From NCBI GenBank assembly GCA_012961365.1, contig DTZN01000302.1, forward strand, positions 1 through 12,684: a stretch of 12,684 nt of DNA, written 5' to 3'. Below the pieces are notes generated by a model, which saw only the letters and a program-made list of their open reading frames with translations, did not search any database and was not told the origin of the DNA. Source of the stretch: Hydrogenothermaceae bacterium (lineage in GTDB: Bacteria > Aquificota > Aquificia > Aquificales > Hydrogenothermaceae). Positions within the stretch are counted from its first letter, which is position 1. The number at the start of each line of letters is the position of its first letter. The translations under genes and the position numbers were made by a program. Positions 887 to 3,271 of the stretch are shown here, in pieces.

Positions 887-1627
887 ATGTTATACAGCAT
901 AAAAATTAGAACTTCCTTAAAAGAAAAACATATCTCTGGTGCAGAAAGGATTGTATCAAAAGAAAAAATTCCAAATGTTGTAAAAGCCCTTTTAAAAAGA
1001 CAGGAACACAAAGATTTTGATTTTTCAAATGTAAAAATAGAAAAAATTTCTCAAAAACCTATAATTTTAGGAAAATCTTTAAAAATAAAAACCTATAAAT
1101 TTGAAAATTACAAAGAAGCTTTAGGTTTTGCTTTAAATATAATATCTGCAAAAACAAACCTTCCTTTAGAAACAGCAAAAAAGTTTATAAATCTTTTATA
1201 TATAGGAGCTTCTCCAGATAAAAATAATATGAGAGGAGCAATGATTGTTAATGAAAAAGGTGAAAGATTAGAAAAAGATAAATTTAGAGGTGTTAGAACT
1301 GTTTTAGTGGATTTTAAGAATAGAGAAATAATTACAAAAAAACTATTAGAAAAAGGATACACGGAAAGAACAGTAGATGCTCTAGCACTTGCTACCAAAA
1401 ATTTAAATTATAAAAACTTAATAGCAGAATTTTGTATATCTGACGATAATGATTACACAACAGGATACTTAGCAATTGATGGAAAATATATTAGATTGAA
1501 ACCTTTAAAGCCTTATGGATTAGACAAAGGTGGTAGAATTTATTTTGTAAAAAATAATACAAATGTAGATGAGCTTTATAATTATTTAGAGAAAATTCCC
1601 GTTTTAATTGAGGATATAAATGAATAA
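887..1627 (+). CDS. bioW: 6-carboxyhexanoate-CoA ligase (pimeloyl-CoA synthetase) BioW
   Basis: The enzyme activates free pimelate with ATP and CoA to pimeloyl-CoA, the acyl donor for BioF in biotin synthesis; it is cytosolic. The 246-residue length is normal for the family. Hallmarks visible in order: HISGAER near the N-terminus (15-21), SPDKNNMRG (109-117), GVR (135-137), the highly typical ISDDNDYTTGYLA (184-196) and GGRIYFV (215-221). The N-terminal YSIKIR start matches BioW proteins, supporting the ATG at 887. No Shine-Dalgarno sequence precedes it; the 16 nt before the ATG are two copies of ATTAAATA. The stop overlaps the start of the BioH-like gene by 8 nt. BioW is known from Aquifex and Bacillus. 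What is unusual here is its pairing with BioH-like and BioC genes. Confidence 0.93.
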   Translation: MLYSIKIRTSLKEKHISGAERIVSKEKIPNVVKALLKRQEHKDFDFSNVKIEKISQKPIILGKSLKIKTYKFENYKEALGFALNIISAKTNLPLETAKKFINLLYIGASPDKNNMRGAMIVNEKGERLEKDKFRGVRTVLVDFKNREIITKKLLEKGYTERTVDALALATKNLNYKNLIAEFCISDDNDYTTGYLAIDGKYIRLKPLKPYGLDKGGRIYFVKNNTNVDELYNYLEKIPVLIEDINE

Positions 1628-2264
1628 CGTTTTTATTCACGGTTGGAGTTTTAGTAGTGATATATGGAAAAATCTATATAATGGAAACTTTATAGATTTA
1701 CCTTTTCATGGGAATTCGAATTTAAGCTTTAAAAAAAACATTATTGAAAATTTTGTAAATTACATAGGAAATACCATTAATAGAAACTCTACACTAATAG
1801 GTTGGTCTTTAGGTGCCACTGTTAGTGTTTTAGTTGCAAATAAATATCCCGAAAAAGTAAAAAAGTTAATTCTTATAGGTTTTTCTCCAAAATTTAAAGA
1901 TGAAAAATTAGGAAGCTCACCTAAATTTGTAAAAGCCTTTATGTTTTCATTGAAAAAAGACTTTGAAAAAACTCTTTATAACTTTAGAAAAACTTCTTGT
2001 GACAAAGAGTTTGAAAATATAACTTTTCCTAAAAAAGATGGAGCAATAAAAATTTTAGAAGAATTTATAAACCTAGATTTAACAAACTTAATTTCTGAAG
2101 TTAGACAGGAAGTTGTTTTAATACATGGTAAAAATGATAAAATTGTAAACTATCAAGCATCTACTTTTACTAATGAAAAAATAAAAAATTCAAAACTTAT
2201 ACTAAATAATTCAAACCACTGCCCTTTTTTAGAAAATCCTGATATAATTGTTAACCATTTATAA
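1620..2264 (+). CDS. bioH: Alpha/beta-hydrolase, BioH-like pimeloyl-ACP methyl ester esterase
   Basis: A 214-residue alpha/beta-hydrolase with a full apparent catalytic triad: nucleophile Ser63 in GWSLGA (61-66), Asp173 in HGKND (169-173) and His200 in NSNHCPF (197-203). The oxyanion segment HGWS (7-10) and the DLPFHG turn (26-31) resemble BioH (HGWG, DLPGHG). It is shorter than E. coli BioH (about 256 aa), with a reduced lid region between about 90 and 150. In the BioC/BioH route the esterase removes the methyl group from pimeloyl-ACP methyl ester, ending chain elongation. The position directly before bioC and overlapping bioW supports a biotin role. Other pimeloyl esterases (BioG, BioJ, BioK, BioV) are alternatives; the symbol is given by context. 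Start ATG lies in the bioW 3' end. Confidence 0.75.
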   Translation: MNNVFIHGWSFSSDIWKNLYNGNFIDLPFHGNSNLSFKKNIIENFVNYIGNTINRNSTLIGWSLGATVSVLVANKYPEKVKKLILIGFSPKFKDEKLGSSPKFVKAFMFSLKKDFEKTLYNFRKTSCDKEFENITFPKKDGAIKILEEFINLDLTNLISEVRQEVVLIHGKNDKIVNYQASTFTNEKIKNSKLILNNSNHCPFLENPDIIVNHL

Positions 2265-2276
2265 AAATTTGGTTAA

Positions 2277-2283
2277 CAGGAAA
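2277..2283 (+). promoter_or_regulatory. Ribosome-binding site deciding the bioC TTG start
   Basis: CAGGAAA sits between the bioH-like stop (2262-2264) and the TTG at 2287, with AGG about 6 nt before the start codon. No similar site precedes the upstream in-frame TTG codons at 2248 and 2269. Confidence 0.55.
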
Positions 2284-2286
2284 CAA

Positions 2287-2991
2287 TTGCAAACTATAAT
2301 AAAGCAAACTTTTTCAAGACATTGCAAAAGCTATGAATATAAGGCAATAGTTCAAAAACAGGTAGCTTTAGAATTTGAAAAGTATAGAAATTTACTTTCT
2401 GGTAATGGCATAGATTTAGGTTGTGGAACAGGATTTTTATCTAAAGTTTTAAACGGTAAGGAGCTAATTGGAATTGACATATCAAAAAAGATGGCTAAAG
2501 AATACATAGAAAACACAGGAAATAAAGCAATAGTAGCAGATATTCAAAAGCTACCATTAAAAAATAGCTCATTTAATTTCGCAGTTTCTAGCTTTGCACT
2601 TCATTGGACTAATATAAATGACAGTTTTTTTGAAATTAATAGAATATTAAAAAAAGACAGTTATTTTATTTTTTCAATACCTGTTGAACCCTCGTTGGAA
2701 GAATTCTTTTTATTTATAGGAAAAAATTTTAGCTTTCCGATAGTTCAAAAAGTCTTAAAAGACTTGTATTTTAACAACTTTAAAATTTTAGAAATTTACG
2801 AAAAACAGTTCCCAGTTTATTTTGATAATGGAAAAGAAGCACTGATGTTTTTTAAGCAAACAGGAACAGCGATAAATAAAAATGCAAAAACTTTAAAAGA
2901 AAAAATAAATAATTACAGAAAGCTTATAAGTTATGACAAACCAATAAAAACAAAATTTAATATGCTATTTGTAAAAGCAATTAAGAATTAA
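2287..2991 (+). CDS. bioC: Malonyl-ACP O-methyltransferase BioC
   Basis: A SAM-dependent class I methyltransferase that methylates malonyl-ACP so that the fatty-acid machinery can extend it to pimeloyl-ACP methyl ester. With the TTG start at 2287 it has 234 residues. It opens with the BioC-like N-terminus (F-S-R-H-C-K-S-Y-E, compare FxRAAxxY in E. coli), then motif I DLGCGTG (43-49), GID (62-64), VADIQKLP (84-91), and the post-motif SSFALHW (101-107), a strong BioC signature. Longer TTG starts at 2248 and 2269 lack a ribosome site. The 2287 start has AACAGGAAAC just upstream and begins where the family does. It follows the esterase by 22 nt. The gene ends 11 nt inside the convergent gene on the other strand. 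BioF, BioA, BioD and BioB are not in the window. Confidence 0.85.
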   Translation: MQTIIKQTFSRHCKSYEYKAIVQKQVALEFEKYRNLLSGNGIDLGCGTGFLSKVLNGKELIGIDISKKMAKEYIENTGNKAIVADIQKLPLKNSSFNFAVSSFALHWTNINDSFFEINRILKKDSYFIFSIPVEPSLEEFFLFIGKNFSFPIVQKVLKDLYFNNFKILEIYEKQFPVYFDNGKEALMFFKQTGTAINKNAKTLKEKINNYRKLISYDKPIKTKFNMLFVKAIKN

Positions 2992-3000
2992 CCTTCTTAG
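2981..3000. terminator. Weak AT-rich stem-loop at the bioC / 96-aa gene convergence
   Basis: TTAAGAA (2981-2987) and TTCTTAG (2994-3000) can pair over a 6-nt loop, exactly where the two convergent genes overlap. The stem is AT-rich with one imperfect end pair. Only the minus-strand transcript has a modest T-rich run after it. It may be a weak terminator for the minus-strand gene, but thermodynamic support is poor. Confidence 0.22.
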
Positions 3001-3271
3001 CTCTAAAAACCCTTACCTTTTGACCATCAATTTCTTCAAACTCAGGTTCAAAAACTTCATCAGAAGAAAATAAGTCTAAAACTTGATATTTTACACAAAC
3101 AGCATTTATTGCTTTTGTTATTTCTTCTTTATCCATAATATAAGTTTCCCAGTATGTAGCAAAAACAAGATTCCCATTTTTATCATGTATTGCAAGCCTT
3201 ACTTCATCTACAAGTTTTTCCTTAGGATCTCCATATAATGTTAATGTTGCGTATAATTCTTTATTTTCCAA
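2981..3271 (-). CDS. Conserved-looking hypothetical protein, 96 aa
   Basis: I do not recognise this gene. It encodes a 96-residue soluble, acidic protein with no signal peptide or membrane helix. The N-terminal half alternates as in beta strands (ELYATLTLYGDP at 4-15; RLAIHDKNGNLVFATYWETY at 25-44). Then comes a likely helix (KEEITKAINAVCVKYQVLDLF, about 48-68), and an acidic segment (DEVFEPEFEEIDGQKVRVFRAKK) ends the protein. The start is TTG, supported by a near-ideal AAAGGAGG 5 nt upstream, the best ribosome site in the window, so good expression is likely. It is divergent from the M3 oligopeptidase and convergent with bioC, ending inside it, so it appears to be a single-gene transcript. 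No function is proposed. Confidence 0.75.
   Translation of the reverse strand: MENKELYATLTLYGDPKEKLVDEVRLAIHDKNGNLVFATYWETYIMDKEEITKAINAVCVKYQVLDLFSSDEVFEPEFEEIDGQKVRVFRAKKVNS

Follow-up and report, generated by a model that had tools for sequence, protein, structure and literature searches.

On a contig from a Hydrogenothermaceae bacterium, bioW, a gene for a BioH-like esterase, and bioC are contiguous and all located on the plus strand. This arrangement raises the question of why one locus should carry enzymes of two pimelate routes that, according to the original prediction, normally replace each other. The substrate of BioW is itself part of the question, as the available text of a 2024 report states that it is unknown how B. 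subtilis or any other strain makes the pimelic acid for BioW (PMC11089781). Based on sequence comparisons, we give about even chances to the reading that bioW, the bioH-like gene, and bioC encode consecutive steps of one pimelate pathway instead of rival routes. Their near-constant co-carriage in the Aquificota, often as one operon in the Hydrogenothermaceae, suggests a pathway in which pimelate is first produced as the free acid and subsequently re-activated.

Gene organization and identity

The window, i.e., the whole stretch of DNA analyzed (12,684 nucleotides; C302:1-12684), belongs to the draft genome G000, which comprises 315 contigs with 93.7% completeness and 6.8% contamination. The gene bioW (887..1627, plus strand) encodes a 246-aa 6-carboxyhexanoate (pimelate)--CoA ligase. 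In profile searches, the protein matched Pfam PF03744 with 232.9 bits (cut-off 25; 4.9e-69) and cleared two NCBIfam equivalog models, NF002360 (242.2 bits, cut-off 226) and TIGR01204 (195.4 bits, cut-off 193.55). It also matched PDB 5tv5, named 6-carboxyhexanoate--CoA ligase, over its full length (7e-57), and by homology it is predicted to make pimeloyl-CoA from pimelate, ATP, and CoA.

The esterase gene (1620..2264, plus strand) overlaps bioW by 8 nt (1620-1627) and encodes a 214-aa alpha/beta hydrolase with a short cap. The best NCBIfam model for this protein was TIGR01738 (BioH), although its 85.3 bits fall short of the cut-off (206.95). After a gap of 22 nt follows the gene for a 234-aa BioC-like SAM methyltransferase (2287..2991, plus strand), counted from a TTG at 2287. 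An upstream TTG at 2248 offers a longer alternative; the start at 2287 is supported because the Met of the relative at locus L038 aligns there. TIGR02072 (BioC) was the best NCBIfam model with 102.3 bits (3.6e-29; cut-off 184.95), and the next non-BioC model reached 4.9e-10. The methyltransferase shares the SAM-binding DxGxG motif, the N-terminal F...Y...Q columns, and a W column with E. coli BioC, and residues D43, G45, G47, F9, Y16, Q23, and W107 are invariant among eight aligned rows that include the E. coli protein. As the equivalog cut-offs for BioH and BioC were missed, the two proteins are named BioH-like and BioC-like here. The models, the catalytic triad described below, and the coordinates bear out the original identification of the three genes, their contiguity, and the 22-nt gap.

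Two small open reading frames without Pfam matches flank the genes. One of 171 aa (360-875) ends 11 nt upstream of bioW; three congeners (L028, L038, and L040) have a homologue immediately before bioW, and a fourth (L039) has one at another place in the stretch fetched. The other, of 96 aa (2981-3271, minus strand), is convergent with bioC and overlaps its end, with homologues in nine other fetched loci.

Fold and active site of the BioH-like hydrolase

The catalytic triad of the esterase (S63, D173, and H200) is intact and shows no substitution in any of the 27 aligned family sequences, among them that of the window, and the nucleophile lies in a GWSLG motif. The AlphaFold model has a mean pLDDT of 97.1, and its best fold match in the PDB is 4etw, a BioH-ACP complex (TM 0.88 by query length); BioH chains make up seven of the eight best matches. 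Relatives of the esterase were found in the Hydrogenothermaceae, Persephonella, Sulfurihydrogenibium, Hydrogenobaculum, and Aquificaceae, in addition to two remote matches in Thalassomonas and Omnitrophota. This distribution agrees with the original assignment to the Aquificota and suggests the Hydrogenothermaceae as the family of the window.

In E. coli BioH, R138, R142, R155, and R159 are presumed to form the ionic contacts with ACP, according to the available portion of PMC9302846. None of these four arginines is present in the window esterase, where the alignment places K117, N121, and then two gaps. The patch is not conserved in the 27 family rows either, as the R138 position is occupied by K, N, D, G, P, or C and the R142 position mostly by N. 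The absence of these arginines fits a hydrolase that may be independent of this mode of ACP docking, and thereby lends indirect support to the earlier suggestion that the esterase might not act on the ACP form. It is not proof, because BioH-type enzymes may differ in how they bind ACP.

Co-occurrence across the Aquificota

The phylum set comprised 136 Aquificota genomes from 30 genera and five families, 88 of which were classed as good, and was searched with E limits of 1e-10 for BioW, 1e-12 for BioH-like, 1e-20 for BioC-like, and 1e-60 for BioF proteins. BioW was found in 121 of the 136 genomes, the BioH-like protein in 119, and the BioC-like protein in 122. All three were present in 111 genomes and none in six; the others had BioW and BioC (four), BioW only (four), BioH and BioC (four), BioC only (three), BioW and BioH (two), or BioH only (two). 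Among the individual loci, L155 (G127) was left out, as it had no gene at the thresholds applied there. All ten BioH-like and BioC-like proteins scanned had BioH or BioC as their best NCBIfam model.

Among the 88 good genomes, 84 have all three proteins, and none has BioC/BioH without BioW. The gaps are confined to G047 and G113, which miss all three, G103, which misses BioH and BioC, and G061, which misses BioC. A BioF match occurs in 86 of the 88 at 1e-60, including G047 and G113, and the cut-off of the BioF model itself is passed in only 80 of the 136 genomes. The BioC matches of genus g14 (five genomes, four of them good) are weak, at 109-115 bits, and do not adjoin bioH, so that a stricter count of good genomes with all three is 80 of 88. 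BioC matches in family f3 are also weak (92-121 bits), but in five of seven genomes they lie in linkage with bioH.

Within the 41 Hydrogenothermaceae genomes, BioW was found in 38 and the BioH-like protein in 34. BioC-like proteins were found in 38 at an E limit of 1e-12, which admits other methyltransferases, and in 35 at 1e-20; the BioF count was 38 at 0.001, a limit loose enough to include other aminotransferases, and 33 at 1e-60. In the 23 good genomes of the family (completeness ≥90% and contamination ≤5%), BioW, BioH-like, and BioC-like proteins are each present in 23 of 23, and BioF in 22 at 1e-60, the exception being a 72-bit fragment in G032.

The premise that the two routes normally replace each other thus holds only in part. 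The available passages of the literature present them in this manner, but they coexist in Desulfuromonas (PMC545781) and in the 84 good Aquificota genomes. The original prediction also left a choice between redundancy and a hybrid route; the retention of both gene sets throughout the phylum, in genomes of about 1.1-2.1 Mb, makes simple redundancy less likely, and a hybrid appears to be the best reading of the sequences.

Linkage of bioW, bioH, and bioC

The genes bioW and bioH lie within 2.5 kb of each other in 29 of the 34 Hydrogenothermaceae genomes with a match to both, far beyond chance, whereas this linkage is absent from the genomes of three other families with both genes (0/54, 0/6, and 0/19). 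In those three families, bioW is not linked to bioC either. Linkage of bioH and bioC was found in 24 of 33 Hydrogenothermaceae genomes and in 51/56, 5/7, and 0/19 genomes of the other three families, which suggests an earlier pairing of bioH with bioC, with bioW added later in the Hydrogenothermaceae. All three genes are together in 20 of 33 Hydrogenothermaceae genomes, and the possibility raised at the outset that the arrangement is peculiar to this genome is therefore ruled out. The same gene order occurs on independent contigs, including those of the one- and two-contig genomes G033, G035, and G015. Outside the Hydrogenothermaceae, the three genes downstream of bioC in L163, the one such locus annotated, are not biotin genes.

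The BioW of G041 is identical to PDB 5tv5, which we take to be the Aquifex aeolicus enzyme, across all 240 residues. A structure of BioW from this species is reported in the available text of PMC8024396. In G041, a BioH-like gene (C1:1504932-1505513) overlaps a BioC-like gene (C1:1505497-1506132), and the best NCBIfam models of their products are again BioH and BioC, both below cut-off. The enzymes of one thermophile could thus be tested together.

A gene for a protein of 116-121 aa directly follows bioW in genera g3, g4, g6, and g7 (15 loci, e.g., L046 8659-9024 and L050 8342-8701), and it precedes bioH wherever the contig reaches bioH. Two of the 15 proteins were scanned, both without a Pfam match. 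The model of this protein has a pLDDT of 91, and its fold matches are insignificant and mostly to O6-alkylguanine-DNA alkyltransferases; assignment as a winged-helix protein would be a guess.

A putative BirA-type operator

An element that the first reading missed lies at the junction of the two downstream genes. A BirA-type operator, TTGTTAACC-N14-GGTTAACAG (2248..2279), has one mismatch to the palindrome consensus TTGTxAACC-N14-GGTTxACAA, overlaps the bioH stop, and ends 7 nt before the bioC start. A score of ≤3 mismatches was reached in one of 200 shuffles of the window, and the site is the only one at ≤2 mismatches in its draft genome. Conservation of the left arm is partly protein-driven, as it overlaps bioH codons, while the right arm is non-coding if bioC starts at 2287. 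BirA sites of this form have been published for delta-proteobacteria (PMC545781, Table 1 of the available text).

A scan of the 41 Hydrogenothermaceae genomes at ≤2 mismatches returned five sites, one per genome, leaving 36 genomes without any; a reversed control pattern gave no match in the same genomes. The sites of G000, G002, G003, and G005 are located at the bioH-bioC junction, with 0-1 mismatches in the latter three, and that of G030 is directly upstream of bioH in a stand-alone bioH-bioC pair. The congener G004 carries a three-mismatch site at the bioH-bioC junction, and the congener G001, in which bioC is located elsewhere, has none at two mismatches. No site at two mismatches was present in any of the 23 good Hydrogenothermaceae genomes, and the five operator-bearing genomes are hence drafts. 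With a looser pattern and about 200 nt of upstream sequence, no site at ≤2 mismatches was found at 62 BioW, 42 BioH, 14 BioF, 15 small-ORF, and 8 hotdog genes fetched. Among 34 stretches upstream of bioC, four contain a site with 0-1 mismatch, and L039 has a two-mismatch match elsewhere in the stretch. The site was seen in two genera alone and says nothing on the rest of the phylum.

The genome of the window encodes a biotin protein ligase of 317 aa whose N-terminus carries an HTH_11 domain (PF08279), a candidate for binding to this site. The operator would place bioC, and in G030 also bioH, under the control of biotin, which speaks against an unrelated function of these genes. Biotin protein ligase open frames are at least 313 aa in most Hydrogenothermaceae genomes and 252 aa in G020. 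The ligase of G040 (L240 1456-2223; 255 aa) has no HTH domain, and biotin regulation may accordingly differ within the family. A sigma-70-like match at 2273-2300 was discarded since shuffled sequences gave a mean of 19.3 such matches compared to 10 in the region.

BioF and the acyl donor

The BioF encoded in the genome of the window shares 39-43% identity with four BioFs of Bacillota whose genes lie near bioW, compared to 31% with E. coli BioF. For the BioF of G041 the contrast is smaller (31-41% to Bacillota and 35% to E. coli). BioF accepts only pimeloyl-CoA in B. subtilis (PMC8024396) and also in Elizabethkingia (PMC12915131), as stated in the available parts of these reports. Donor preference was not taken from a tree of 16 BioF rows, in which one of 13 inner branches was well supported and the E. 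coli and Mammaliicoccus proteins were on very long branches.

A gene for a protein of 77-85 aa adjoins bioF in eight of the loci read (e.g., L175 1033-1269) and overlaps it by 4 nt in the genome of the window. The one protein scanned had a weak KH-like Pfam match below cut-off. A role of the 78-aa gene product as a dedicated ACP was rejected, being unsupported by its sequence and by the Pfam scan of one of the eight.

A possible linear route to pimeloyl-CoA

In the proposed linear route, BioC would methylate a malonyl thioester, which fatty-acid synthesis would extend to the C7 methyl ester. The BioH-like hydrolase would then take off the methyl group, and the pimeloyl chain would leave its carrier as free pimelate, either via the BioH-like hydrolase or another thioesterase. 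BioW would turn free pimelate into pimeloyl-CoA as the presumed donor for BioF, and in the genus of the window biotin would probably repress bioC through BirA. A narrower version can be put forward tentatively, in which the methyl-disguise route ends in free pimelate and not in pimeloyl-ACP, and BioW is the obligatory re-activation to pimeloyl-CoA; the hydrolase, lacking E. coli-style ACP docking, would act on a released monomethyl ester or cleave both the ester and the thioester.

Regarding the releasing enzyme, a gene for a 4HBT hotdog thioesterase overlaps the bioW start in all eight BioW-bearing genomes of genera g5 and g9, by 4 nt in seven of them (L048 8748-9137, L066 7568-7960, and six more loci). 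As this gene turned up in 93 of the 136 genomes but not in that of the window, it was rejected as the general pimelate-releasing thioesterase and is at most a candidate in these two genera.

The linear route is preferred mainly because of co-retention, as no good genome has BioC/BioH but no BioW. The BioF match in 86 of 88 good genomes, the bioW-bioH overlap and the linkage of these genes in 29 of 34 Hydrogenothermaceae genomes, an operator that is always at bioH or bioC, the biotin protein ligase with its HTH domain, the four absent arginines, and a BioF closer to those of Bacillota also count in its favor. Counting against it are the sub-cut-off scores of the BioH-like and BioC-like proteins, the absence of a universal releasing thioesterase, the unlinked bioW in three other families, the presence of BioW only in G103 and of BioF only in G047 and G113, the weak BioC of g14, the poorly supported BioF tree with the smaller contrast for the BioF of G041, and the absence of an operator at two mismatches from the 23 good Hydrogenothermaceae genomes. 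A serious contender, although we doubt it, is that the two routes run in parallel, such that BioC and BioH make pimeloyl-ACP used directly by BioF while BioW only salvages free pimelate that is external or stems from decay of pimeloyl-ACP. Such repair would be useful under heat, and the Aquificota are thermophiles. The available texts of two papers describe BioW as a user of exogenous or salvaged pimelate (PMC9302846 and PMC4403557), and the good genome G103 keeps BioW alone. Moreover, BirA-type sites occur at bioC or bioH, with none at ≤2 mismatches in the 200 nt upstream of the bioW genes fetched. However, one would expect a pure salvage enzyme to have disappeared from some of the 88 good, small genomes, whereas BioW is missing only in G047 and G113, which are also without BioC and BioH, and parallel routes leave the absent ACP-contact arginines unexplained.

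It is improbable that the BioC/BioH-like pair serves another methyl-ester step and that only BioW belongs to biotin synthesis. The missed equivalog cut-offs, the general nature of hydrolase and methyltransferase folds, and the non-biotin genes after bioC in L163 would agree with such a function, but BioH or BioC was the best model in 10 of 10 proteins scanned, seven of the eight best folds were BioH chains, and the operator and the near-complete co-occurrence with BioW and BioF point to biotin synthesis. Accidental juxtaposition in a fragmented and slightly contaminated metagenome bin (315 contigs, 6.8% contamination) has a negligible probability and is refuted by the repetition of the gene order on independent contigs, such as those of G033, G035, and G015.

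Comparison with known systems

Compared to the E. coli BioC-BioH pathway, the Aquificota set has the same esterase and methyltransferase families and a BioH-like fold with 4etw as the best match, but it comes with BioW, and the esterase has a 13-column gap in the cap and lacks R138, R142, R155, and R159. BioV of Helicobacter (NF033854) is also a BioH-type esterase, although the match to it is weak (27.7 bits against a cut-off of 150; 2.1e-06) and the window esterase is closer to BioH at 85.3 bits.

Both gene sets have been known to occur in one genome since 2004, when bioC-bioH and bioW were reported from Desulfuromonas sp. together with BirA sites at bio genes (PMC545781). In the available text of this account, the BirA sites precede bioW and bioB and the genes are read as two different pathways, and that text does not describe phylum-wide co-retention or bioW-bioH-bioC linkage. 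Likewise, no description of the Aquificota linkage or of a linear BioC-BioH-BioW route was found in the available text of the open-access full-text matches listed.

The B. subtilis-type BioI-BioW pathway (bioWAFDBI) shares the BioW family with the Aquificota, and in both a free acid would become the CoA form. In contrast to the Hydrogenothermaceae loci, neither bioC nor bioH is annotated within 6-7 kb of bioW at four Bacillota plasmid loci (of eight records matched) in the PLSDB gene table, which is incomplete. For the source of the pimelate used by BioW, the Aquificota genomes offer a concrete answer that can be tested, namely BioC/BioH chemistry, and if true, this source would be identified in a whole phylum.
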